Assembly (NCBI RefSeq): GCF_024498075.1
Contig: NZ_JANHOF010000009.1
Coordinates: 1-64,000, forward strand
From: Paenibacillus mendelii
GTDB lineage: Bacteria; Bacillota; Bacilli; Paenibacillales; Paenibacillaceae
Reading direction: 5' to 3'
Length of the DNA: 64,000 bases
In this document: positions 1,920 through 64,000 of the stretch, piece after piece
Layout: each line of letters starts with the position of its first letter
Numbering within the stretch: the first letter of the stretch is position 1
Program-made: the position numbers and the translations under genes
The notes under the pieces: generated by a model
What the model saw: the letters and a program-made list of their open reading frames with translations, nothing else
Told to the model about the DNA's origin: nothing
Database searches by the model: none

Positions 1920-3407
<1,488 letters not shown>

Positions 3408-3423
3408 TAGATCGTCATATATT

Positions 3424-3478
3424 GAAGACAGGCAAGGATATGGTGAAATAATCACCATTGCCCCTGCTTGTCTTTTTT
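3424..3478 (+). terminator. Intrinsic terminator after guaB
   Basis: An imperfect inverted repeat (AAGACAGGCA ... TGCTTGTCTT, with an inner ATGGTGA/TCACCAT stem) is followed by a T run, 17 bases after the guaB stop. Confidence 0.8.
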
Positions 3479-33433: not shown

Positions 33434-33470
33434 TTTTTCGACAACGCTATTCTATATTAATTATCGACAG
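33434..33470 (-). promoter_or_regulatory. Spo0A-box-like pair upstream of motAB
   Basis: On the minus strand, GTTGTCGAAAAA (33434-33445) and CTGTCGATA (33462-33470) resemble Spo0A boxes and lie ~130-160 bases upstream of motA. Repression of motility genes on entry to sporulation would make sense. The match is partial. Confidence 0.35.
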
Positions 33471-51889: not shown

Positions 51890-52774
51890 ATGAAACGGAT
51901 TAAATCGAAAGAGCCTTATTATATGCTGGCCCCAAGCTTCCTGCTATTGTGTATTTTTTTACTGTATCCCTTGTTGAGTTCCTTCTTGTATGCCTTCCAA
52001 AGCTATAAGCTGACTGCACCGAACGCGATTGGCTTTAACGGGATCAATAACTTCAAGGCCGTATTTCAAGACTCCAATTTTGGCTTGATACTTAAAAACT
52101 CTTTTATCTGGGTTGTACTGACGGTAGGCGGACAGTTTATTCTCGGCTTCATTCTAGCCTTGGCGCTGCGCCGGCCTTTCCCGGGAAGGAACTTCTATCA
52201 GGCCATCGTATTTCTCCCATGGGCGATCTCTTCCTTCGTCGTCGGGCTCACCTTCCGCTGGCTGCTCAATGCAGAGTATGGCCCGGTTAATGATCTGCTG
52301 CTCAGGCTGGGCATTATTAAGGATAAAATCTATTTTTTGTCCGATCCGGAGCTGGCTTTGTATACCGTGATTGTGACAATGACCTGGTACGGCATTCCTT
52401 TCTTCGCGATCATGCTGCTTGCGGCTATGCAATCTATACCTGAGGATCTGTACGAAGCCGCCGATATCGACGGAGCGGGAATCTGGTCTAAATTCTGGCA
52501 TATTACGTTCAGCTATATTAAACAAACGATTATACTGACATTGCTGCTCAGGACAATATGGGTATTTGCTTCGGCTGATCTTATTTATATTATGACGGCA
52601 GGCGGTCCGGCCAACTCATCTAGCATTCTATCCTCCTACATGTTCATGAAAGCTTATTCATCCTTGGATTATGGACAGGCATCGGCGATCGGTTTATTCT
52701 TCATGGCGCTGCTGATCCTATTCTGCTACTTGTTCATGAAGGCGACTAAATTCGAGAAGGCGGGTAATTTCTAA
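51890..52774 (+). CDS. ABC transporter permease, MalF-like
   Basis: A 294-aa six-helix protein with the EAA loop (IPEDLYEAADIDGAGIWSKFWHITFSYIKQ). ATG 51890 after AAGGAGG. Its stop overlaps the next start. Part of a CUT1 importer that lacks its own ATPase. Confidence 0.94.
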   Translation: MKRIKSKEPYYMLAPSFLLLCIFLLYPLLSSFLYAFQSYKLTAPNAIGFNGINNFKAVFQDSNFGLILKNSFIWVVLTVGGQFILGFILALALRRPFPGRNFYQAIVFLPWAISSFVVGLTFRWLLNAEYGPVNDLLLRLGIIKDKIYFLSDPELALYTVIVTMTWYGIPFFAIMLLAAMQSIPEDLYEAADIDGAGIWSKFWHITFSYIKQTIILTLLLRTIWVFASADLIYIMTAGGPANSSSILSSYMFMKAYSSLDYGQASAIGLFFMALLILFCYLFMKATKFEKAGNF

Positions 52775-53610
52775 TGATAAGAACCCAACGCGCCTTTTTT
52801 ATAACTGTCCGTATCTGTATTCTGATGTTTTACCTGTTGATGGTGCTGCTGCCGTTTTACTGGCTGTTCATTACGTCCGTTAAACCCCGTATGGATATTC
52901 TAACGACCAATATCCAATACTGGCCCAAGAACTTCACGCTTGATAATTACAGAGTGTTATGGTCCTCATCCAATTTCGATGTTTTCCTGAAGAACAGCAT
53001 CCTGGTTTCTCTTGGAACCGGCGTGTTTACGACCTGCTTCGCGATTCTTGGCGGCTATGCGCTGGCACGTTATACGTTCAAGTTAAAAACCATGGCGGTG
53101 TACGGTCTGCTGCTCACGCAAATGATTCCCGGCGTTCTGGTTATGATTCCGACTGCGATCTTATTCAGCAAGGTTGGTCTCATGAATAGTCTGGGCGGCC
53201 TGATCATTATTTACATCGTCGGCAATATTCCATTCTGCCTGATTCTGATGCGCAGCTTCTTCGACCGGATACCTGTTGATCTGGAGGAGGCGGCTTTGAT
53301 CGACGGCTGCAGCAAGCTGGGGGCGCTCTTCCGGATTGTACTGCCGATTATGCTGCCGGGCATTGTGGCCACCTTCGTATTTGCTTTTATCGGAGCGTGG
53401 AATGAACTGCTCTGCGCAATCATGTTTATCAGCAGCGATGAGCTTAAAACCATTCCTGTAGGACTCTCCATGTTTGTGCAAAATTATGATGTCAATTGGG
53501 GAGTCATGACGGCAGGTGCAGTTATGGCACTGCTTCCTTCATTAATTATGTTTGCCATCGTTCAACGATTCGTGGTCGAGGGATTGTCGGATGGAGCCGT
53601 TAAAGGATAA
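52774..53610 (+). CDS. ABC transporter permease, MalG-like
   Basis: A 278-aa six-helix protein with the EAA loop (IPVDLEEAALIDGCSKLGALFRIVLPIMLPG) and C-terminus QRFVVEGLSDGAVKG, standard for CUT1 permeases. The start overlaps the first permease's stop by one base (TAATGA), so translation is coupled. Confidence 0.94.
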   Translation: MIRTQRAFFITVRICILMFYLLMVLLPFYWLFITSVKPRMDILTTNIQYWPKNFTLDNYRVLWSSSNFDVFLKNSILVSLGTGVFTTCFAILGGYALARYTFKLKTMAVYGLLLTQMIPGVLVMIPTAILFSKVGLMNSLGGLIIIYIVGNIPFCLILMRSFFDRIPVDLEEAALIDGCSKLGALFRIVLPIMLPGIVATFVFAFIGAWNELLCAIMFISSDELKTIPVGLSMFVQNYDVNWGVMTAGAVMALLPSLIMFAIVQRFVVEGLSDGAVKG

Positions 53611-53655
53611 TACGGGATTGGATTGATTAGAAGAGGCAGAAGGTGGAGAGAGCAG

Positions 53656-54846
53656 ATGAGCAAGCTGATCGAGAAGGAAACCAAGGATGCGGGTAGCCAA
53701 ACCATGCTTACCCATTATGGGGATGAAACGTTTCACGGTGCGGTTGTTCCACCTGTATTTATAAATACATTATTTGCATTCGATTCCTATGAAGCCTTCC
53801 AGAAATCGCAATTCCAGGAGGAAGCTTATTATTATTCGAGGGTATCCAATCCCACGCAGGAAATCGCAGAGAAGAAGCTTGCGGCATTGGAAAAGGGCGA
53901 GGCGGCGAAGCTGTTCTCTTCTGGAATGGCCGCGATTTCGTCCACGCTGCTTCACTGCCTGGGCCAAGGCGACCATGTCGTCTGCAGCTATCCGATTTAT
54001 AACGGTACGTATCAGCTGCTTCAGAAGTTCATGAATAAATTCGGAATTACGGCGGATTTCGTTGATTTCAGACAGCTGGATCAAGTCCGCGCTGCAATTA
54101 AGCCGAATACGAGAGTATTGTATTGCGAGGGTTATTCTACTTTTTTCATGGACGTGTTCGATATCCCGGCCGTTGTTGCAATCGCGAAAGAGCATCAATT
54201 GCTGACGATCATGGATAACACCTGTGCGACGCCGGCCACGCTGCGGCCGATTGAATGGGGCATCGATATCGTGATCCACTCCGCTTCCAAGTACTTGTCC
54301 GGCCACAGTGACGTGACAGCCGGTGTTGTCATCTCTACGAAAGCATGGATCGATGAGCTCACGCAGAATGAAGTGGTTCTACTTGGATCCTCTCTGGCCC
54401 CATTGGAATCGTGGTTGCTGACGCGCGGACTGAAGACATTCGGAATTCGCATGAAGCAGCATGCTGAATCCGCGATGCGGATTGCTGTTATGTTGAGCCA
54501 TCATCCACAAGTGGCCCGCGTGAATTTACCGTTACTCGAGCAGCATGAACAGCATGAGCTGGCCGTGCGGCAGTTCAGCGATATTACAGGTCTGTTCAGC
54601 TTTGAGCTGCATGGCGGCGTCACTGCGGTGAAACGATTGATGAACAGCATGAAGCTATTCCAGATTGGCGTGAGCTGGGGAGGCTTCGAGAGCTTGATCT
54701 ATTCCCCGGGCCTTGGCATTCATCCCGATCAGACATCACGAACCGAGTGGGAAACCAGGCTGGAGCGCACGGTGCGGATCTCTGTCGGACTTGAGGATAT
54801 TGAGGATCTCATGGAGGATTTCAAGCAGGCGCTGGATGGTTTGTGA
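53656..54846 (+). CDS. PLP-dependent Cys/Met-metabolism (transsulfuration) enzyme
   Basis: A 396-aa enzyme of the cystathionine gamma-synthase / methionine gamma-lyase family. Signature: the Lys in IVIHSASKYLSGHSDVTAGVV forms the aldimine with PLP. YYYSRVSNPTQEIAEKKLAALEKGEAAKLFSSGMAAIS is the standard N-terminal part. The TGLFSFEL and GVSWGGFESLIYSPG segments complete the fold. The reaction (synthase, lyase or racemase-type) cannot be settled by eye. ATG 53656 after GAAGGTGGAGAG. It is the last gene of the ABC operon, an uncommon partner for a sugar importer. Confidence 0.88.
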   Translation: MSKLIEKETKDAGSQTMLTHYGDETFHGAVVPPVFINTLFAFDSYEAFQKSQFQEEAYYYSRVSNPTQEIAEKKLAALEKGEAAKLFSSGMAAISSTLLHCLGQGDHVVCSYPIYNGTYQLLQKFMNKFGITADFVDFRQLDQVRAAIKPNTRVLYCEGYSTFFMDVFDIPAVVAIAKEHQLLTIMDNTCATPATLRPIEWGIDIVIHSASKYLSGHSDVTAGVVISTKAWIDELTQNEVVLLGSSLAPLESWLLTRGLKTFGIRMKQHAESAMRIAVMLSHHPQVARVNLPLLEQHEQHELAVRQFSDITGLFSFELHGGVTAVKRLMNSMKLFQIGVSWGGFESLIYSPGLGIHPDQTSRTEWETRLERTVRISVGLEDIEDLMEDFKQALDGL

Positions 54847-54927
54847 GGCAAATGTTGCGGAACATCCTCTAGCCGATGGCGCTAGAGACAAGCAGTGGAA
54901 CATCCTAGCATCCTAGCGATGTTGAAT

Positions 54928-54968
54928 ACAGAGCATAGGAGGTTACGGCCTCTCTTGCTCTGTTTTTT
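54928..54968 (+). terminator. Terminator of the ABC/PLP operon
   Basis: ACAGAGCA ... TGCTCTGT stem, inner AGGAGG/CCTCT pairing, and six Ts. Confidence 0.85.
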
Positions 54969-55304
54969 GTTTAAAATGAGCATGGAGTCAACACTCCGCG
55001 CTCAGCAGGAGGAATTCACGGAATAAAGAAATGAGTATCGTCGGGCAAAGATGATACTATACATAGGCCAAAAGGCATGGTATATTCGATCTTGATGAAA
55101 ATTTATCCAGTTAAATCGACTGATTTCTCAGTGAGAAGCGATGCTGCTGAAACTGGAATAAGTACGGGTGGGGGCAAAACGACCTAGAAATCTACATTAG
55201 ATATCGTTTTCCGATAATTAAAACTAAATATCGACAAAATAATACATTATAACTATAATCAAATAGAAATGGAAAATGATATAATAAAAGGGGAGTTTAT
55301 ACTT
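54969..55304. other. Gene-free region
   Basis: I see no supported gene, RNA or strong repeat here. It is AT-rich near 55190-55270. Confidence 0.5.
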
Positions 55305-55613
55305 ATGAAGGTAAGGTTGAAAAATGCGGTAGGCGGATTGAAGGAAGTGAAGGTCGGGTTTAGTTGGACGACTTTCTTTTTTGGGTTTTTCCCTGCTCTT
55401 TTCAGAGGAGACCTGAAATGGGCAGTAATTATGTTTATTACTTCGGTTGCAATCGGAATATTCACATTAGGATTCGGAGCATGGATTCCAGGCATTATCT
55501 TTTCTTTTATTTATAACAAGATGTATATTAAAGAATTGCTGGAAAAAGGATACCGCCCAGCCGATGATCATGCTCAATCTGCATTGCAAACAAAAGGAAT
55601 CATTGCTGCATAG
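55305..55613 (+). CDS. Small membrane protein, DUF2628/HrgC-like
   Basis: A 102-aa protein: MKVRLKNAVGGLKEVKVGFSWTTFFFGFFPALFRGDLKWAVIMFITSVAIGIFTLGFGAWIPGIIFSFIYNKMYIKELLEKGYRP, in which VKVGFSWTTFFFGFFPALFRGD is the recognisable start of a widespread family of short two-to-three-helix membrane proteins of unknown role. ATG 55305 after AGGGGAG; the frame is also open from 55269. Confidence 0.8.
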   Translation: MKVRLKNAVGGLKEVKVGFSWTTFFFGFFPALFRGDLKWAVIMFITSVAIGIFTLGFGAWIPGIIFSFIYNKMYIKELLEKGYRPADDHAQSALQTKGIIAA

Positions 55614-55668
55614 GGCACCTCTCATCGGGTAGTAAGCCTGCCACATCGAACTTATCAGACTATTTCTA

Positions 55669-55702
55669 GTAGCCGCTCCTTCTAAGGGACGGTTACTTTT
55701 TT
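55669..55702 (+). terminator. Terminator after the small membrane protein
   Basis: GTAGCCGCTCC / GGGACGGTTAC stem with six Ts. Confidence 0.8.
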
Positions 55703-55751
55703 ATTTCGTTTATAATGAAGGATATATATACTAAAATCATACCATTCGTCT

Positions 55752-55779
55752 TGTCGATTTCATTGCTAGTTATTCGTCG
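55752..55779 (+). promoter_or_regulatory. Putative ECF42 promoter 1 (DGPF gene and sigma factor)
   Basis: TGTCGA-N17-CGTCG, 80 bases before ATG 55860. The same arrangement recurs at 57693, 58236 and 58775. Confidence 0.75.
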
Positions 55780-55859
55780 TCCATGTAGGAGCGGGTTTAC
55801 CTCTCGGAGTTAGAACGGATCTAATCGAGTGGCCAAAATGAATGCAGGAGGGTAATTAT

Positions 55860-56291
55860 ATGCGATTTATGATGATCGTCAAAGGCACGAAGGATTCCGA
55901 GGCGGGCACTATGCCCAGCCAGGAGTTGCTCGAAGCGATGCTGCGCTATAACGAAGAATTGGCTAAGGCCGGGGTGCTGCTCGCTGCCGACGGCTTGCAC
56001 GCAAGCTCGCAAGGCATTCGGATATCCTATCCGGAGCCTGGCGGGAAGCCGAAGGTTATGGACGGGCCATTCACCGAAGCGAAGGAAATCATAGCCGGAT
56101 ACACCCTTATTGAAGTGAAATCTAGGGAAGAAGCCATCGAATGGGCGATGCGCATGCCGGATCCCCACGGTTACGGAGAAGGGCAAATTGAGCTTCGCCA
56201 GATCATCGATGCGACCGATCTGACGCAGAATCCCGATACGCTTGCAATGGAAGCCTCGATTCGTGAGCAAATAGAAAGGCGCAAAACATGA
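55860..56291 (+). CDS. YCII/DGPF-family protein 1
   Basis: A 143-aa protein with the DGPF motif (VMDGPFTEAKEIIAGYTLIEVKSREEAIEWAMRMPDPHG) that names the family; RFMMIVKGTKDSEAG at the start. DGPF/YCII proteins have a ferredoxin-like fold and no settled function. Here the stop overlaps the sigma factor start (ATGA), the known ECF42 arrangement. ATG 55860 after CAGGAGGG. Confidence 0.93.
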   Translation: MRFMMIVKGTKDSEAGTMPSQELLEAMLRYNEELAKAGVLLAADGLHASSQGIRISYPEPGGKPKVMDGPFTEAKEIIAGYTLIEVKSREEAIEWAMRMPDPHGYGEGQIELRQIIDATDLTQNPDTLAMEASIREQIERRKT

Positions 56292-57544
56292 GCGATTCCT
56301 CCGTCTTGCGTACAATCGATGCCATCTGGCGCATTGAATCGGCCAAGCTTATCGCCGGTCTGGCACGAATGGTTCGCGATGTCGGCCTAGCGGAGGATCT
56401 TGCGCAGGATGCGCTTGTCATCGCGTTGGAGCGGTGGCCGGCCACCGGCATCCCGGATAATCCGGGTGCTTGGCTCATGACGACGGCGAAACGCCGTGCG
56501 ATCGATCTCCTGCGCAGGAACAAGCTGCGCGATCAGAAGTATGAGGAGTTCGGACGCGGAAGCGATTTGTATACCGAGAATGACATGGACCTTACCATGG
56601 ATGGCGAGGTTGGAGACGATCTTCTCCGATTGATCTTCACGACCTGCCACCCCGTCTTATCCCAAGAGGCCAGAGTAGCGCTGACGCTGCGCCTGCTCGG
56701 AGGGCTCACAACGGATGAGATCGCGCATGCTTTTCTCGTCGCCGAATCAACGATCGCACAGCGAATCGTCCGGGCCAAACGGACGCTTAGTGCTAAGCGG
56801 GTGGACTTCGAGGTTCCTGTAGGTGAAGAGCTCCAGGATCGTCTGTCCACAGTGCTCGAAGTGATCTATCTGATGTTCAATGAAGGGTATTCAGCGACTT
56901 CCGGCGGCAGCTGGATTCGCCCGCTGTTGTGCCAGGAAGCGCTCAGGCTCGGGCGTATTCTGGCGGAAATTGCACCTGCCGAGCCGGAGGTTCACGGCTT
57001 GGTTGCTCTGATGGAAATCCAATCGTCGCGCTTCAAAACCCGGGTAAACGCTTCAGGAGAACCCATCCTTCTCATGGACCAAAACCGCGCGTTATGGGAT
57101 CAGCTGCTGATCCGCCGCGGCTTGGCTGCCCTCGAGCGTGCCCGCAGGCTCGGACGGCCGCTCGGTCCGTATGCGCTTCAAGCTGCGATATCCGCATGCC
57201 ACGCACAGGCTCGTCTCGCATCCGAGACCGATTGGGCGCGTATTGCCGCTTTATATGAGGCCTTGTCGCGCGTCATGCCGTCGCCTATCGTTGAATTGAA
57301 CCGCGCGGTGGCCATCGCCATGGCATTCGGCCCGGCTTTCGGCTTGCAAATTGTCGATGAGCTGGCATCCGAACCGTCTTTGAAGGATTACCACCTGCTG
57401 CCGAGTGTGCGCGGCGATTTTCTCGTCAAATTGGACCGTATCGACGAAGCCCGCGGAGAGTTTGAGCGTGCGGCTTCGCTGACGCGAAATGTACGGGAAC
57501 GGGAGCTCCTGCTGAAGCGCGCGGCGGAATGCTCGAACCAATAA
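56288..57544 (+). CDS. ECF42-type RNA polymerase sigma factor with C-terminal helical domain
   Basis: A 418-aa protein, twice the size of ordinary ECF sigma factors. Sigma-2 region at ~15-80 (MVRDVGLAEDLAQDALVIALERWPATGIPDNPGAWLMTTAKRRAIDLLRRNK), sigma-4 region at ~115-170 (RVALTLRLLGGLTTDEIAHAFLVAESTIAQRIVRAKRTL). Residues ~175-415 form an all-helical TPR-like extension (FNEGYSATSGGSW, RRGLAALERARRLGRPLGPYALQAAISACHAQAR, VELNRAVAIAMAFGPA, DFLVKLDRIDEARGEFERAA) that is required for activity in studied ECF42 members. No anti-sigma factor is encoded next to it, as usual for this group. Translationally coupled to the DGPF gene. Confidence 0.93.
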   Translation: MSDSSVLRTIDAIWRIESAKLIAGLARMVRDVGLAEDLAQDALVIALERWPATGIPDNPGAWLMTTAKRRAIDLLRRNKLRDQKYEEFGRGSDLYTENDMDLTMDGEVGDDLLRLIFTTCHPVLSQEARVALTLRLLGGLTTDEIAHAFLVAESTIAQRIVRAKRTLSAKRVDFEVPVGEELQDRLSTVLEVIYLMFNEGYSATSGGSWIRPLLCQEALRLGRILAEIAPAEPEVHGLVALMEIQSSRFKTRVNASGEPILLMDQNRALWDQLLIRRGLAALERARRLGRPLGPYALQAAISACHAQARLASETDWARIAALYEALSRVMPSPIVELNRAVAIAMAFGPAFGLQIVDELASEPSLKDYHLLPSVRGDFLVKLDRIDEARGEFERAASLTRNVRERELLLKRAAECSNQ

Positions 57545-57692
57545 GTTGAACACAACCCGCTGCGCAGGCAGAATGTTCTTACGATCGCTGTTGTTCCCGG
57601 TTTTCCTTGCATTCTTCCTGCTCCAATCCTTACATAGACGCGAATGGACAAACGTTCATTAACGTCTTTTTTTATAATAAATTTATCCGGCA

Positions 57693-57720
57693 TGTCGATA
57701 ATTCCGCTTCCCGTTCGTTG
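57693..57720 (+). promoter_or_regulatory. Putative ECF42 promoter 2 (DGPF protein 2)
   Basis: TGTCGA-N17-CGTTG, 63 bases before ATG 57784. Confidence 0.72.
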
Positions 57721-57783
57721 CTTAAGTAGAGGCGGGAATACGGATAGACCCGGTCTCATTATGGTATCGGGAGGGAAGCACGG

Positions 57784-58218
57784 ATGCGATATATATTGAT
57801 CGTCAAAGGCAGCAGGTATTCCGAAGCTAGCTTGAAGACCAGCCGGGAACACAGGGATGCAATGGCAGCATATAACGAGTTATTGGCAAGAGCCGGCGTG
57901 CTCCTCGCTGCAGAAGGACTGCAGCCGAGTTCGAGCGGGATGCGGATCACCTATCCGGTACACGGCGGCATGCCGAAGGTAACGGTTGGACCGTTCACAC
58001 TGGAGAAGGAGCTGGTCGCGGGCTTTAAGATGATTGAGGTCAAGTCAGAAGAAGAAGCGATCGATTGGGCGATGCGCATGCCGAATCCCAGCGGCTTCGG
58101 CGATGGTGAAATTGAGCTCCGCCTGCTTAGCGAGGATGTAAACCTGCTGCACGTTTCCCCAACCATGGCCTTGGAGGCCGATTTGCGGGACCAAATTGAC
58201 ATGCTAAAAAAAAGTTGA
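57784..58218 (+). CDS. YCII/DGPF-family protein 2
   Basis: A 144-aa protein: RYILIVKGSRYSEAS, then VTVGPFTLEKELVAGFKMIEVKSEEEAIDWAMRMPNPSGFGDGEIELR, in which the DGPF signature has become VGPF. It has the same length and layout as the protein at 55860. ATG 57784 after CGGGAGGG. Its last ~12 codons are copied in the tandem duplication (58724-58757). Confidence 0.92.
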   Translation: MRYILIVKGSRYSEASLKTSREHRDAMAAYNELLARAGVLLAAEGLQPSSSGMRITYPVHGGMPKVTVGPFTLEKELVAGFKMIEVKSEEEAIDWAMRMPNPSGFGDGEIELRLLSEDVNLLHVSPTMALEADLRDQIDMLKKS

Positions 58219-58235
58219 ACTTTTTTTCTCCGATC

Positions 58236-58263
58236 TGTCGATTTGGTCATCACCCGTTCGTCG
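58236..58263 (+). promoter_or_regulatory. Putative ECF42 promoter 3 (VOC copy 1)
   Basis: TGTCGA-N17-CGTCG, 55 bases before ATG 58319. Confidence 0.75.
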
Positions 58264-58318
58264 TGTATATATAGAGGCCGAGTTTTACCAAAAAAACAAA
58301 GTGAGAGGTTGATCAAAA

Positions 58319-58714
58319 ATGGGAGCACAGCTTACAACTTATTTGATGTCGGAGAATGCAAGAGCGCAGGCGGAATTTTATAAGCAGGCATTGGGCGGAG
58401 AAATCGGGTTCGTCAAGACGTTCGGAGAGACGCCGGGAACACCGGAAGCGGTCAAGGACAAAGTGATGCACATGGTGCTGACGGTTGCCGGAGCCAATAC
58501 GCTGTTCCTGTCCGATTCCTTCGGACCGGTATCGGGTAACAGAAGTATTAGTCTATCCTTGTCATACAATAGTGAATCCGAAGCTCGGGAGGCCTTCGCG
58601 AACCTCGGTGAGGGCGGCGAGGTCAAGTATCCGTTCGAACTTCAGCCATGGGGAGCTTACTACGGCGAAATCATGGATAAATTCGGTGTTACGTGGCAGA
58701 TCGTCAAGCAATAG
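58319..58714 (+). CDS. VOC-superfamily protein (PhnB-like), copy 1
   Basis: A 131-aa protein: QLTTYLMSENARAQAEFYKQALGGEIGFVKTFGETPG and NTLFLSDSFGPVSGNRSISLSLSYNSESEAREAFANLGEGGEVKYPFELQPWGAYYGEIMDKFGVTWQIV, the PhnB/glyoxalase-like pattern. Function in the family is unclear; PhnB-like members bind small ligands and do not act as glyoxalases. ATG 58319 after GTGAGAGG. The DNA is identical to copy 2. VOC proteins are a recurrent partner of ECF42 sigma factors. Confidence 0.92.
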   Translation: MGAQLTTYLMSENARAQAEFYKQALGGEIGFVKTFGETPGTPEAVKDKVMHMVLTVAGANTLFLSDSFGPVSGNRSISLSLSYNSESEAREAFANLGEGGEVKYPFELQPWGAYYGEIMDKFGVTWQIVKQ

Positions 58715-58774
58715 GAAAGGGTCTGCGGGACCAAATTGACATGCCAAAAAAAGTTGAACTTTTTTTCTCCGATC

Positions 58775-58802
58775 TGTCGATTTGGTCATCACCCGTTCGT
58801 CG
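58775..58802 (+). promoter_or_regulatory. Putative ECF42 promoter 4 (VOC copy 2)
   Basis: Exact duplicate of promoter 3, 55 bases before ATG 58858. Confidence 0.72.
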
Positions 58803-58857
58803 TGTATATATAGAGGCCGAGTTTTACCAAAAAAACAAAGTGAGAGGTTGATCAAAA

Positions 58858-59253
58858 ATGGGAGCACAGCTTACAACTTATTTGATGTCGGAGAATGCAA
58901 GAGCGCAGGCGGAATTTTATAAGCAGGCATTGGGCGGAGAAATCGGGTTCGTCAAGACGTTCGGAGAGACGCCGGGAACACCGGAAGCGGTCAAGGACAA
59001 AGTGATGCACATGGTGCTGACGGTTGCCGGAGCCAATACGCTGTTCCTGTCCGATTCCTTCGGACCGGTATCGGGTAACAGAAGTATTAGTCTATCCTTG
59101 TCATACAATAGTGAATCCGAAGCTCGGGAGGCCTTCGCGAACCTCGGTGAGGGCGGCGAGGTCAAGTATCCGTTCGAACTTCAGCCATGGGGAGCTTACT
59201 ACGGCGAAATCATGGATAAATTCGGTGTTACGTGGCAGATCGTCAAGCAATAG
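58858..59253 (+). CDS. VOC-superfamily protein (PhnB-like), copy 2
   Basis: Encodes the same 131 aa as the gene at 58319. The duplicated promoter region is included, so gene dosage of this product is doubled under the same control. DUF1801 follows after 39 bases and is likely co-transcribed with this copy. Confidence 0.92.
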   Translation: MGAQLTTYLMSENARAQAEFYKQALGGEIGFVKTFGETPGTPEAVKDKVMHMVLTVAGANTLFLSDSFGPVSGNRSISLSLSYNSESEAREAFANLGEGGEVKYPFELQPWGAYYGEIMDKFGVTWQIVKQ

Positions 59254-59292
59254 GACGACACAGTCATTCTACTTATTAAGGGAGCAAAGCAT

Positions 59293-59634
59293 ATGAACCA
59301 GGAAGTAACAGACTTTATTGAAGCGATTAAAGAGCCTTGGCAAAGAGAGCTAAGTGCCAGTCTGCGGGAGGTTGTCCTTGGCGCGATACCGGACGTTAAG
59401 GAGCGCATCCAGTACAAGAAGCCCCATTTTCTGAAAAACGGAAAATACGCAGCTGCTATTTCAACTTCGAAGGATGCGGTAAGCTTTACGATCTTCAATA
59501 CCAGCGAGCTGTCACTCCCGAAAGGGCTGTTCGACGGTCCTCCGGAAAGGAAGACCATCAAGCTGAGACAAGGGCAGTCTGTCGATACCGCTGAACTGTC
59601 GTCACTGGTAAGTCAAGCCTCTTCGGCCTTATAA
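59293..59634 (+). CDS. DUF1801 (YdhG-like) protein
   Basis: A 113-aa soluble protein with VTDFIEAIKEPWQRELSASLREVVLGAIPDVKERIQYKKPHFLKNGKYAAAISTSKDAVSFTIFN, the DUF1801 pattern (KWGxPxF-type core here as KKPHF). Function unknown; DUF1801 proteins often accompany stress regulons. ATG 59293 after AAGGGAG. Confidence 0.85.
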   Translation: MNQEVTDFIEAIKEPWQRELSASLREVVLGAIPDVKERIQYKKPHFLKNGKYAAAISTSKDAVSFTIFNTSELSLPKGLFDGPPERKTIKLRQGQSVDTAELSSLVSQASSAL

Positions 59635-59912
59635 TGGCAGACTGATATGCTCTCCATACGGTAGACAGGTGAAATAATAGAACCTGCTATTGTAGGGGGG
59701 GCTTTTCCATGATTAGAATTGCGCGTTCCATCCGTAGTGGCTGCTCTTTCGCACACTATTCTCCACCCATATGCATCCATTTATACAACAACAAGTTCCG
59801 TTCATAAGGCGCTGTCCTTGTCCCGAACCTTCCGTATCGCTATTCTATGCAAAAAATTAAAGGATCTTGGCCTTGATGCCTTTACTATTGAAGCGTTATA
59901 CGACAATGTGGC

Positions 59913-60998
59913 TTAGTGCTGGACCCGCCGTTTTCTTAACCAAGCGAGAACCAAAAGAAGCAATGGAAAGAACAGACCGAATATCAATTCGTATTCAAAG
60001 ACGTAGCGTTTGTCCCACGATATATTTTCAACGACATTTTCATTAGATAAGGACAAGCCAGATACGATCAATGTTAGGGGGACCGCCACCCACGTTCTGT
60101 CGGTCAATTGAAACAATTGACAAATACCCGTCACTGCACAATAGAAAGTAGTGGAGAGCTTGATGAAAATGGCAACCAGCAGAATAACGGTTATCGAAGC
60201 TTCGAGATGTTCGATTAACGATCCGATCCGAATCTCCTGTACGATCACATACAGGGGGTAGGTTTCATGAGAAGCGCGAGTGACTCCGAGCACACCGACT
60301 GTAAAGGCTGTTACGGCAACCAATATTAACGTTGCTATTGTCATACCCCAAACAAAACTGGCCTTTTGCCTGCTTTTCACATACGGAAACATCATCATGA
60401 GAACGATGGACTCGATATAAGGAAATGCGATTACGTTTCGCGTTTCTTTCATCGTTTTCCATACCTCGAGACGGAATGCAGGTTGAAATCGATCCGTATT
60501 CCACTCCGGAAGCATGAGAAAGCAAATGATGATAAACGTCAACAAAATGATCGGCGTTAACATCTCGTTTGTCCTGGCGATGGATTCCAGCCCTTTGACG
60601 GTTGCATAACAAACAACAGCCAGAATCATCACATGAAATACAGTTATCGGGGTATGGGGCATTAAGGTGGACTTCATGAAATCGCCAAGATTGCGGACGA
60701 CCCAGCTGGCTAATTGCACAAAAAAACCTATATAACACATTGCAATAAACCCGCCGGCCAGTTTTCCTCCTGCCTTCGTGCACACTTGTACGATACTTAA
60801 TCCGGGATAATACGCAGCCAGTTTCATCCAGAGATACGCCATCGCAACCCCGATAGCTCCCGTCCACAACCAAATCATCCAGGCATCCTGCCTGGCTACA
60901 GCAATTAGTCCTCCCGGGCGAAGGAAGAACGTGGTTCCAAGCACATACATGAACGTCAACAGAAAAAACTGCCAGCTGCTAATTCGGGCTTGTTCCAT
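59913..60998 (-). CDS. Spore germinant receptor B subunit (GerAB/ArcD/ProY family)
   Basis: A 361-aa inner spore-membrane protein with ~10 membrane helices, of the APC-like permease fold. Features: SSWQFFLLTFMYVLGTTFFLRPGG, the central helices, and C-terminal LIFGLFFPLLLLVLAWLRKRR. The B subunit binds the germinant (an amino acid in studied cases). ATG 60998 after AGGGGCGGAG. Last gene of the operon. Confidence 0.94.
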   Translation of the reverse strand: MEQARISSWQFFLLTFMYVLGTTFFLRPGGLIAVARQDAWMIWLWTGAIGVAMAYLWMKLAAYYPGLSIVQVCTKAGGKLAGGFIAMCYIGFFVQLASWVVRNLGDFMKSTLMPHTPITVFHVMILAVVCYATVKGLESIARTNEMLTPIILLTFIIICFLMLPEWNTDRFQPAFRLEVWKTMKETRNVIAFPYIESIVLMMMFPYVKSRQKASFVWGMTIATLILVAVTAFTVGVLGVTRASHETYPLYVIVQEIRIGSLIEHLEASITVILLVAIFIKLSTTFYCAVTGICQLFQLTDRTWVAVPLTLIVSGLSLSNENVVENISWDKRYVFEYELIFGLFFPLLLLVLAWLRKRRVQH

Positions 60999-61038
60999 GA
61001 TCTCCGCCCCTTTACACGCAAGTATTTTTAATCTGGAA

Positions 61039-61242
61039 CTACAATCCGGTTATGTCGATCACCCGAGCGATCCATCGATACGGATTAATTGTTTTATCCA
61101 TAAAAATGGCGATCCAGACCGTAAAACCGATCAGAGCCAATGTAACAAATATGGATATTTCTTTTGCGTGTTTTTTCATTCGCACCATGAAGAAGATGGC
61201 GAGACCGAAGGATGTCATAAAGAAAATGATAAAACCGGTCAC
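61039..61242 (-). CDS. Small two-helix Ger operon protein (D-type subunit candidate)
   Basis: A 67-aa protein with two membrane helices: TGFIIFFMTSFGLAIFFMV and ISIFVTLALIGFTVWIAIFM, and a short charged loop (RMKKHAKEIS). Small two-helix 'D' subunits occur in many germinant receptor operons and modulate receptor function. GTG start 61242 after AAAGGAGGG. It sits between the C and B genes. Confidence 0.78.
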   Translation of the reverse strand: MTGFIIFFMTSFGLAIFFMVRMKKHAKEISIFVTLALIGFTVWIAIFMDKTINPYRWIARVIDITGL

Positions 61243-61264
61243 AGAGGGCCCTCCTTTGTTTAGC

Positions 61265-62455
61265 CTAATTTCCTCTGTAGGGGTCTATAATTTCGCCGAT
61301 ATCCGTTATTTTGCTGTTTATTGTACAATACAGCTTCGTCTGCCGCCAGAAGTCCTTTTCTTGCAGCGCTTTCGCCCATTCTTTGCCTCGCTTGTTTTTC
61401 ATCTGACCTTCAAGGCCGAACAAGTCCCATCTTTTCGATTGAGCCTGTTCGAAAAAATCATTTATTTTAGCGGCGGTCTGACGGTTGAAAGCTTCTTTTA
61501 TCTCCGCTAGATTCTTCGTCGTTAATTTCTGCTGCTGTTCATTGCTCATAATCTGTAAGTGGGCGTGGATGTCCAGCCTCCAGACCGGTCTGCCTGAAAT
61601 ATAGGAGAGCTTCTTGTGAACCTTAATTTTGGTCGCGCGAAGATCCACATTATTCGAATTTAGCTTAACCGTATCATAGAAGACCTTGGCTTCTCCCTTC
61701 ATCAAGTAGTACAACGGCATTTGCGTCAATTTCAATTTGCCAATCATTCGGTCCTGTTTAAAAACGGCCCCTCCGCTCAACCTGAGCTCTCCTCCGTTTG
61801 CATTGATTTTTTCATAACGATCCGTGGATGAAGCATGCTTCAATGTCTGGAGGGCTACCATGGGCAGTACGGTTAAGATGGAAGATTCCATGTTCTCGAC
61901 TAAATCTTTCACGCGGCACTTTCTGCTAACCCTGCCGGACGATTTGGATTGTAGTTCAATCAACGAACGCAGCGAGCGTCCCGGCAATCTTTCCAACAAT
62001 GTGTATGTATTCATCACATCCGATAACGGTGAATCTGTGATGATCAAGTAAAGGTCGGTCCGCCGGTTGAACTGACGCTCAAGAAAATTAAGAAAAGGGC
62101 GCAGTCCCTGCCGGGCGCTTCTTTCCGTAATCAGATGCGATTGATAATGGTCGGGGAACAAATCTCGAGGAAGGCTTTCGGAAGACTTCAGCGCTAACTC
62201 CGCTATAGACGACGCTTCAACCCGGTAGGTATAAACAGGGGCCTTGATGCCGGCTCCTCCTTGAGCGGTAACGGCTTTGGGATTCACAATTTGATAATAA
62301 ACAATCTGATTCCCTGATTTGGGGTCAATATCGCCTCCAATCAGACTTCCAATGGCCAACTGGTTGATTTCCACCATATCCCAGCACCCTGTTAATCCAC
62401 ATAAGCAGAGTATCGTAAAGATCAGCATCAGCTTCTTGCTGCGCATGCGATTCAC
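61265..62455 (-). CDS. Spore germinant receptor C subunit (Ger(x)C lipoprotein)
   Basis: A 396-aa lipoprotein with lipobox GLTGCWD, the hallmark of Ger(x)C proteins, followed by EINQLAIGSLIGGDIDPKSGNQIVYYQIVNPKAV. The three-domain C subunit sits outside the inner spore membrane and needs diacylglycerol addition to work. ATG 62455 overlaps the A subunit stop by four bases (ATGA). Confidence 0.94.
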   Translation of the reverse strand: MNRMRSKKLMLIFTILCLCGLTGCWDMVEINQLAIGSLIGGDIDPKSGNQIVYYQIVNPKAVTAQGGAGIKAPVYTYRVEASSIAELALKSSESLPRDLFPDHYQSHLITERSARQGLRPFLNFLERQFNRRTDLYLIITDSPLSDVMNTYTLLERLPGRSLRSLIELQSKSSGRVSRKCRVKDLVENMESSILTVLPMVALQTLKHASSTDRYEKINANGGELRLSGGAVFKQDRMIGKLKLTQMPLYYLMKGEAKVFYDTVKLNSNNVDLRATKIKVHKKLSYISGRPVWRLDIHAHLQIMSNEQQQKLTTKNLAEIKEAFNRQTAAKINDFFEQAQSKRWDLFGLEGQMKNKRGKEWAKALQEKDFWRQTKLYCTINSKITDIGEIIDPYRGN

Positions 62456-63912
62456 CTTCTGTTTCTTTTGCTCCGATTCATTCTCGGGTATGTCTTCATT
62501 AATGGACGCGGCACCCTAACCAGGATGTCTTTCCAATCGGAAATAAAAGTCGGCGCGATCGGGGCCAGATATGGAACGCTAAACGATTTAAGCGAGGCCA
62601 GATGCACTATGGTGAACAACACGCCGCACATGATGCCGAATAACCCCATAAACCCGCCTAACGCCATATAGGCAAATTGCAAAAGCCGCTGCGCAATGCC
62701 GAAACTGTAGGATGGCGACACGAAGTTGGAAATGGCCGTTACCGCAACCACAATGACCATTGCAGCCGTTACCAGTCCTGCCTGCACGGCCGCTTCTCCC
62801 AGCACGAGTGCACCGACGATGGAAATCGCCTGGCCGGCTACCCGCGGCATGCGCAGACCAGCCTCACGCAGTACTTCAAAGGTAGTAAGCATCAAGATCG
62901 CTTCTATATAAGCCGGAAACGGGACGCCCTCCCGTTGCGCCGCTATGTTGATCAGTAGAGGATTCGGAAGCAGTTCCTGGTGATACGACATGACCGCTAT
63001 GAATACCGATGGCACCAATATAGCCAGCAAGAAAGCGAGCATGCGCAGCCAGCGGAGCATAGTAGCGATATCCGCTCGTTGATAATAATCTTCAGGAGCG
63101 GTAAAAAGTTGAAAAAAGGTAATCGGACCAATAAGCGCAAACGGGGTGCCGTCGACCAGCACCACTACCCTTCCTTCCAGAAGGTGCGAGGCAACAACGT
63201 CCGGACGTTCTGATTCCAGCAATGTGGGAAATGGGGAAACCATACTGTCCTGAATCCACTCTTCAACATAAGAGCTGCCAATAACCCCATCGGTATGGAT
63301 GGATTGAAGACGCGAACGAAAGTCATTCACGACATCCGCTGGCGCCAATTCCTGCAGATAGGCAATGATGATTTTCGTTTGTGTGGTTGTGCCAAGTTCG
63401 TATTGTTCCATCCGGAAGCCAGGGGTTTTGATTCTTTTGCGGAGTAAGGACAAATTCAGTTTGATATCCTCCGTCAATCCTTCGCGAGGCCCTCGAACGG
63501 TTGTTTCTGTTTGCGGCTCGGTGATGTCGCGATGAGCCGGATTGGCCGCGTCCAGCAGCAGAGCTTGATTTGCGTGCGGGAGCAGCAGGATACATTGTCC
63601 ATCAAGAAGACCTCGAACGCAGGAATCGAAGTCGGAGACAGCACTCACCGGAACTAGCGGTATCCGATGGATCAAAGTTGGAATGAGATCCTCGCTCCCT
63701 TGCAGATCTGCGGTGATGAGCCCCTCGCGAAAAACGCGCAAGATGTAATTGTCGATTTGTTCCTTATCGGCCATGGTTTCGATGAATAAACAATTCCCAT
63801 GAATATCGTTCGACAGGGCAAATGTTTGGTTCACCAAGTCAGACGGGTAGTAGAGCTGTTCAGCAAGCTTGTCCGCCAACACTTTTGGATTGATATCGAA
63901 TAATGCTGACAT
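62452..63912 (-). CDS. Spore germinant receptor A subunit (GerA family)
   Basis: A 486-aa protein: a soluble N-terminal domain (~1-240, ALFDINPKVLADKLAEQLYYPSDLVNQTF...) and a membrane half with several helices (AFLLAILVPSVFIAVMSYHQELLPNPLLINIAAQREGVPFPAYIEAILMLTTFEVLREAGLRMPRVAGQAISIVGALVLGEAAVQAG), the most conserved block of GerAA proteins. It forms the pore subunit of the receptor complex. ATG 63912 after CGAGGGGG; an in-frame ATG at 63978 has no ribosome site. First gene of gerA-gerC-D-gerB. Confidence 0.94.
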   Translation of the reverse strand: MSALFDINPKVLADKLAEQLYYPSDLVNQTFALSNDIHGNCLFIETMADKEQIDNYILRVFREGLITADLQGSEDLIPTLIHRIPLVPVSAVSDFDSCVRGLLDGQCILLLPHANQALLLDAANPAHRDITEPQTETTVRGPREGLTEDIKLNLSLLRKRIKTPGFRMEQYELGTTTQTKIIIAYLQELAPADVVNDFRSRLQSIHTDGVIGSSYVEEWIQDSMVSPFPTLLESERPDVVASHLLEGRVVVLVDGTPFALIGPITFFQLFTAPEDYYQRADIATMLRWLRMLAFLLAILVPSVFIAVMSYHQELLPNPLLINIAAQREGVPFPAYIEAILMLTTFEVLREAGLRMPRVAGQAISIVGALVLGEAAVQAGLVTAAMVIVVAVTAISNFVSPSYSFGIAQRLLQFAYMALGGFMGLFGIMCGVLFTIVHLASLKSFSVPYLAPIAPTFISDWKDILVRVPRPLMKTYPRMNRSKRNRR

Positions 63913-64000
63913 AAAGCCCCCTCGACTGCTGTCTTTGATACTTACCGTGGTTCTCTCTTGAAATCGCGGGTAAGGCATACTTATATTTCTGCTCTTTCGC

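Follow-up and report, generated by a model that had tools for sequence, protein, structure and literature searches.

The stretch analysed here, referred to as the window, comprises 64,000 nucleotides of Paenibacillus mendelii (contig NZ_JANHOF010000009.1, positions 1 to 64,000). Between 55752 and 59634 its + strand carries a sigma factor gene of the ECF42 group (ECF, extracytoplasmic function), two DGPF (YCII-related) genes, two VOC-type genes and a DUF1801 gene, together with predicted promoters of the form TGTCGA-N17-CGTYG. The features are as follows, with offsets counted from the first base of TGTCGA.

55752–55779, + strand: predicted ECF42-type promoter of DGPF1 and sigma, TGTCGA-N17-CGTCG (exact match, also to the strict form given below; compared with loci L032 and L095)
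55786–55792, + strand: putative start-site element TAGGAGC of the DGPF1–sigma promoter, offset 34 (offset conserved among related sites)
55860–56291, + strand: DGPF1, YCII-related, 143 amino acids (Pfam; nearest solved relative PA1349, 1s7i, from a sequence search of solved structures)
56288–57544, + strand: ECF42-type sigma factor, 418 amino acids, with sigma2, sigma4 and a DUF6596/TPR-like C-terminal extension (domain searches and model)
57693–57720, + strand: predicted DGPF2 promoter, TGTCGA-N17-CGTTG (exact and strict match; cross-locus comparison)
57727–57733, + strand: putative start-site element TAGAGGC of the DGPF2 promoter, offset 34 (sequence)
57784–58218, + strand: DGPF2, YCII-related, 144 amino acids (Pfam; VGPF at the position of the DGPF of DGPF1)
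58236–58263, + strand: predicted promoter of VOC copy 1, TGTCGA-N17-CGTCG (exact and strict match)
58272–58278, + strand: putative start-site element TAGAGGC of the VOC copy 1 promoter, offset 36, a shift of 2 (sequence)
58319–58714, + strand: VOC-type protein copy 1, PF06983/PF00903, 131 amino acids (Pfam)
58724–59255, + strand: tandem copy of 58184–58716, promoter plus VOC gene (531 of 532 aligned bases identical, one gap)
58775–58802, + strand: predicted promoter of VOC copy 2, duplicated along with the gene (exact match; tandem-copy alignment)
58811–58817, + strand: putative start-site element TAGAGGC of the VOC copy 2 promoter, offset 36 (sequence)
58858–59253, + strand: VOC-type protein copy 2, identical in protein to copy 1 (open reading frame translation)
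59293–59634, + strand: DUF1801 protein, 113 amino acids (Pfam)

The start of DGPF1 was taken as 55860, which is preceded by AGGAGGG, and the stop of this gene overlaps the sigma factor start by 4 nt. The gap of 39 bases between VOC copy 2 and the DUF1801 gene suggests that these two are probably carried on one transcript.

Sigma70_r2, Sigma70_r4_2 and DUF6596 matched the sigma factor above the Pfam cut-offs, and TIGR02937 (sigma70-ECF) also scored above its cut-off, consistent with ECF-type regions 2 and 4; a sequence search showed that the sigma part resembles solved ECF sigma factors. The gene contains the only DUF6596 match in the genome, and relatives of the protein were found in several phyla. 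DUF6596 spans residues 185–285, and in a model for which the window protein was aligned with 37 of its 80 relatives (mean predicted local distance difference test score 84.6, with a weak stretch at 89–106) helical hairpins occur throughout the C-terminal half, with helices running to residue 416. The best PDB fold matches of the model are TPR proteins, two of them with E <0.001, and the TM-scores are ~0.2–0.4 by query length. The C-terminal extension as modelled is therefore ~200 residues of TPR-like repeats. The accessible part of PMC8999054 describes a TPR-rich extension of this length for the ECF42 group, represented among others by Streptomyces venezuelae Sven_0747 and Pseudomonas putida ECF-10, states for the group that the extension is essential for activity, and places a YCII gene in the neighbourhood, as in the window. 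Here the YCII gene is DGPF1, and by a distance rule that we set ourselves a DGPF gene lies directly upstream of the sigma gene in 64 of the 80 relatives. ECF42 promoters combine a TGTCGA −35 element with a CGWC −10 element, and the window sites have these in common with the group: TGTCGA is joined to CGTC at 55752, 58236 and 58775. They depart from the group in that the −10 region reads TTCGTYG, with CGTT in one of the three independent sites (57693). The window protein is an ECF42 sigma factor, with every feature of the group that could be tested present, and the assignment proposed in the initial annotation is backed by both the domain content and the TPR-like model.

The same annotation had listed four TGTCGA-N17-CGTYG sites, 55–80 bases upstream of the starts and with a fixed spacing. 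All four (55752, 57693, 58236 and 58775) are exact, and the distances from site end to start codon are 80, 63, 55 and, for the copied fourth, 55. The window contains five matches to TGTCGA-N17-CGTYG compared to 0.09 expected, a number reached by none of 100 shuffles, and the spacing is indeed fixed, with 108 matches at 17 bases on both strands of 80 related loci and no more than seven at each of the other spacings between 8 and 27. The proposal that three of the four sites did not arise by simple copying is right, and these three are independent; the fourth arose by tandem duplication, 58236 and 58775 being a single site present twice in the near-identical segments 58184–58716 and 58724–59255. 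Across loci, the motif is retained while the spacer diverges: the DGPF1–sigma promoter shows 0/23 motif and 8/13 spacer mismatches against each of L032 and L095, and the DGPF2 promoter shows 2/23 motif and 5–7/13 spacer mismatches against L032, L095 and L105. The tandem duplication (58184–59255) is recent, and its second copy starts within a duplicated piece of the DGPF2 gene tail; the duplication may also be an artefact of assembly.

The motif was then searched in the whole genome (8,134,755 bases in 79 contigs), with the same pattern read backwards as control. The genome scan suggested in the initial annotation gave no enrichment, as bare TGTCGA-N15-19-CGTYG produced 75 matches versus 133 for the reversed pattern. 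The bare motif was rejected as a genome-wide signature and given no genome-wide weight, because it has fewer matches than its control. When 107 distinct N17 sites from the 80 related loci were aligned (at least two of them inside the sigma gene and probably there by chance), T followed TGTCGA in all of them, TT preceded CGTYG at 94 and 97%, T followed CGTYG in 85%, and T-A-R-A-R-G-C appeared at offsets 34–40, with R at 38 the most conserved of its positions (91%) and C at 40 the least (64%). The motif of the initial annotation needs to be extended by T after TGTCGA, TT before CGTYG and TARARGC at the start site. The strict form TGTCGATN14TTCGTYG has 11 sites in the genome and none in the control; a longer pattern with up to 3 mismatches recovers the same 11 sites and three more at 3 mismatches, compared to five control matches. 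Relative to the ECF42 group, the window's genome is distinguished by a single such sigma factor with 11 sites scattered over the genome.

To relate the strict motif to the sigma class, 197 genomes were drawn from the bacterial family; 63 of them have DUF6596, with scores that form two groups, and these were split into a high and a low class at 116 bits. Strict sites are present in 56/56 high-class genomes (152 sites, 6 control matches) and in 12/141 other genomes, although the cut was chosen after the scores were known and the P value for this comparison overstates independence because the genomes are related. The 12 comprise 1/7 genomes with the low class only and 11/134 without DUF6596, and the 13 sites of the 141 genomes are at chance level, with 24 of the 30 control matches found over all 197 genomes. 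Since the sigma operon itself carries a promoter, remote sites were counted separately: among 150 of the 165 rows, 63 sites in 52 sigma genomes lie >10 kb from the sigma gene (34/52 genomes have one), compared to 11 in the 141 others. Within the window's genus, strict sites occur in 14/14 genomes with the sigma class and 2/8 without it, and the window's genome has the highest site count of all 197.

The link between motif and sigma factor also rests on the published promoters of Sinorhizobium meliloti RpoE10, another ECF42 member (PMC6180224, accessible part, here and below). A YCII gene lies upstream of that sigma gene as in the window, and its targets include glyoxalase-like (VOC) genes, as does the window regulon; a VOC-gene regulon is already known from RpoE10. 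Overexpression raised six genes, and two operons with glyoxalase-like genes have, by our count, TGTCGG-N17-CGTC upstream, which shares the spacing and the CGTC −10 element with the window sites but differs in the −35 element. One RpoE10 target has a predicted hydrophobic-ligand domain, and that part of the paper names no hydrolase or reductase, unlike the window regulon. Together, the co-occurrence in 197 genomes, the motif kept over a diverging spacer and the RpoE10 promoters support the proposal in the initial annotation that the sites are putative promoters of the sigma factor itself.

Compared to the ECF42 group motif, the window promoters add an element at the predicted transcription start; whether it is shared by other ECF42 promoters was tested in the sets of sites that follow. 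TARARR is found at offset 34 in 74/135 distinct strict sites; elsewhere between offsets 28 and 109 it occurs at most three times per offset, and 1000 single-base shuffles gave no offset with more than seven. The element is not universal, as 36/135 sites have no TARRR at offsets 32–37, and in the window VOC promoters it has moved by 2 bases. The start site of the RpoE10-dependent SMc01149 promoter, mapped by two methods and given in lower case in Table 1 of PMC6180224, corresponds by our count to offset 35 in this layout, which places the element at roughly −1 to +6. When a weight matrix derived from 130 Bacillales sites was applied to 23 strict non-Bacillales sites (18 genomes, including Myxococcus, Proteobacteria and Acidobacteria), its mean score was highest at offset 34 (1.0; next best −3.8; offsets 28–99, mean −6.9, s.d. 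1.6), though offset 34 is the best match in just 9/23 of the sites taken singly. In Myxococcus, TGRA stands at offsets 34–37 in 8/11 strict sites, and four read TGRAGGC. To our knowledge, a conserved element at or after the transcription start is unusual for an ECF sigma factor. We met no description of it in the literature searched, whose coverage did not extend to the S. venezuelae ECF42 paper, so that this is not proof that it is unreported; the element is possibly a novel part of the ECF42 system. On balance we lean slightly towards ECF42 promoters being three-part, with −35, −10 and a start-site or early-transcribed T-R-R-A-R-G-C (about −1 to +6) that is conserved between phyla. If so, ECF42 sigma factors would use sequence to fix the start nucleotide and to govern promoter escape, or to decide what becomes of the 5′ end of the RNA. 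The three-part promoter would then also serve as a signature by which ECF42 regulons could be read from whole genomes.

We consider it very probable that, as a whole, the locus encodes an ECF42 sigma factor in an operon with DGPF1 that has its own promoters locally and at seven remote sites. This reading builds on the computed sigma domains, TPR-like extension, sites, genome-wide distribution and tie to the sigma class; the sites are predicted promoters that the window sigma factor would bind. In the proposed mechanism, the sigma factor, made from the two-gene operon, would direct RNA polymerase to TGTCGAT-N14-TTCGTYGT-N5-TA(+1)RARGC, with transcription starting at offset 35. It would activate the DGPF2, VOC and VOC–DUF1801 units next to it and the seven further genomic sites, as well as its own operon, which would be a positive feedback. 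Its activity may be set by the TPR extension via a protein partner, for which the co-encoded DGPF protein is the leading candidate. The accessible part of PMC8999054 regards the partner controlling ECF42 sigma factors as still to be identified and likewise proposes a regulatory role for the YCII protein.

Besides the two limits on the family comparison, several observations weigh against this reading. By the same distance rule, 16/80 relatives have no DGPF gene directly upstream of the sigma gene, and 5/18 non-Bacillales genomes with a sigma relative have no TGTCGR-N15-TTCGTYG site, among them the lone actinobacterial genome searched (L104). Two genomes (G093, locus L126; G042, locus L137) have strict sites before YCII genes and no detected DUF6596 sigma factor; these may be relics, or the sigma gene may have been lost to assembly gaps. 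Autoregulation may not be a general feature, since the YCII gene that shares an operon with RpoE10 in S. meliloti was not raised when this sigma factor was overexpressed (PMC6180224). The last two observations would also be expected if the half-sites were the operator of a transcription factor or the promoter of another sigma factor, with the sigma gene merely another target, and direct binding by the window sigma factor is a prediction. We nevertheless find such another regulator improbable: the sites track the sigma class in all 56 genomes, including the 63 remote sites, they are at 1/7 where only the more distant DUF6596 class is present, and their spacing is that of a −35/−10 promoter, a layout in which the SMc01149 start falls at offset 35. 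A still less probable explanation, which we regard as very unlikely, is that the sites are functionless passengers of gene duplication. This does describe how 58775 arose, together with VOC copy 2, and how one site of a gene pair on contig C30 (below) arose, but the other sites keep the motif with different spacers, as seen for 55752 against L032 and L095, and are borne by unrelated gene families.

A more serious alternative to the sigma–polymerase reading concerns the third element only: TARARGC could act as RNA, at the 5′ end of a leader that folds, or be the operator of a second regulator. Bacillales leaders that begin at the predicted +1 are more stably folded than their shuffles (mean z −0.71, s.e.m. 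0.11), compared to mean z between −0.28 and +0.40 for windows with starts outside offsets 30–40, and the element pairs with its own downstream complement in 13/153 leaders versus 6.2 with swapped arms; its position 2 bases further on in the window VOC promoters would also suit this alternative. On the other hand, few leaders pair, several that bear the element are nearly unstructured, and outside Bacillales the signal from folding is noisy, with one upstream window scoring as low. A 5′ stem-loop was therefore rejected as the main reason for the element and kept as a rival. The rigid position at offset 34 also favours recognition by the sigma–polymerase complex, and we hold the RNA or second-operator explanation to be rather unlikely, if by no means negligible.

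Under the ECF42 reading, the regulon extends beyond the local one that the initial annotation described: four strict sites lie in the window, but 7/11 lie outside it. These remote sites, all matching the strict motif, are listed by contig and position.

C1:20089, third YCII (DGPF) gene downstream
C9:153420, alpha/beta hydrolase downstream
C12:175493, RibD_C-domain protein downstream
C30:14918 and C30:17275 (L115), two near-identical VOC genes downstream
C44:3468 (L116), VOC gene downstream
C44:3254 (L116), apparent YCII remnant downstream (promoter and remnant together, 3254–3447)

The C30 VOC genes agree at 559/564 aligned bases and lie 2.36 kb apart, each with its own ECF42-type promoter. 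In the C44 remnant, a 14-codon tail, MEADLRDQIDMLNK, is recognizable by eye, and the VOC gene with its own promoter comes next. Sites are present at 3/3 YCII genes detected in the genome and at 5/12 PF06983 genes. A downstream open reading frame was found for 136 of 139 distinct sites from own, related and family loci (slightly looser pattern), and these cluster into 74 YCII, 21 alpha/beta hydrolase, 17 VOC, 6 DUF1801, 4 DoxX-like, 3 RibD_C, 3 DUF998 and 8 singletons, with names based on one or few members each and counts that favour the neighbours of the sigma factor, since most loci were fetched for holding it. The cluster of six indicates that the DUF1801 gene type is directly preceded by a site in other loci. 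With 11 sites and no control match in an 8-Mb genome, the ECF42 targets become a gene list: DGPF, VOC, alpha/beta hydrolase, RibD_C and DUF1801, and in relatives also DoxX-like and DUF998 proteins. The targets in the window's genome look like small enzymes that handle reactive or toxic small molecules.

The more distant, low-class DUF6596 sigma factors of the family share the DUF6596 extension with the window sigma factor, to which they are 33–37% identical, but differ from its class in their upstream sequences. No strict site was found on either strand of 18 low-class loci of ~8 kb, and TGTCGAAAT-N14-CGWCAT occurs in 4/18 of them (L152, L153, L157 and L158), 435–566 bases before the matched sigma part; the latter pattern is absent from the 80 loci of the high-class, window-type sigma factor. 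These sequence patterns suggest that the two classes may have separate promoter specificities.

The fifth exact match in the window, TGTCGA-N17-CGTTG at 33442–33469 on the − strand, was absent from the list in the initial annotation. It sits in TAAT-N15-GTCGATAA upstream of a MotA_ExbB gene (the sigma-D consensus is TAAA-N15-GCCGATAT), and at its counterpart the relative L198 retains TGTCGATAA but not the CGTTG half. Because of this flagellar-type promoter context and the pattern in L198, it was rejected as a regulon member and taken as a decoy. The region has DNA matches in 10/19 other genomes searched, all of the same genus.

A Pfam scan of the 12 proteins from 51890 to 63978 showed no anti-sigma family, in keeping with the ECF42 group, whose sigma genes have no anti-sigma gene nearby, though a novel type of anti-sigma factor is still possible. 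Upstream of DGPF1, an open reading frame at 55269–55613 (+ strand) encodes a hydrophobic protein of 114 amino acids without a Pfam match; it was considered as an anti-sigma factor and rejected, having no counterpart in the 80 loci of sigma relatives. The genes around the locus encode sugar-type ABC permeases, a pyridoxal phosphate enzyme of the Cys/Met type and spore germination proteins.

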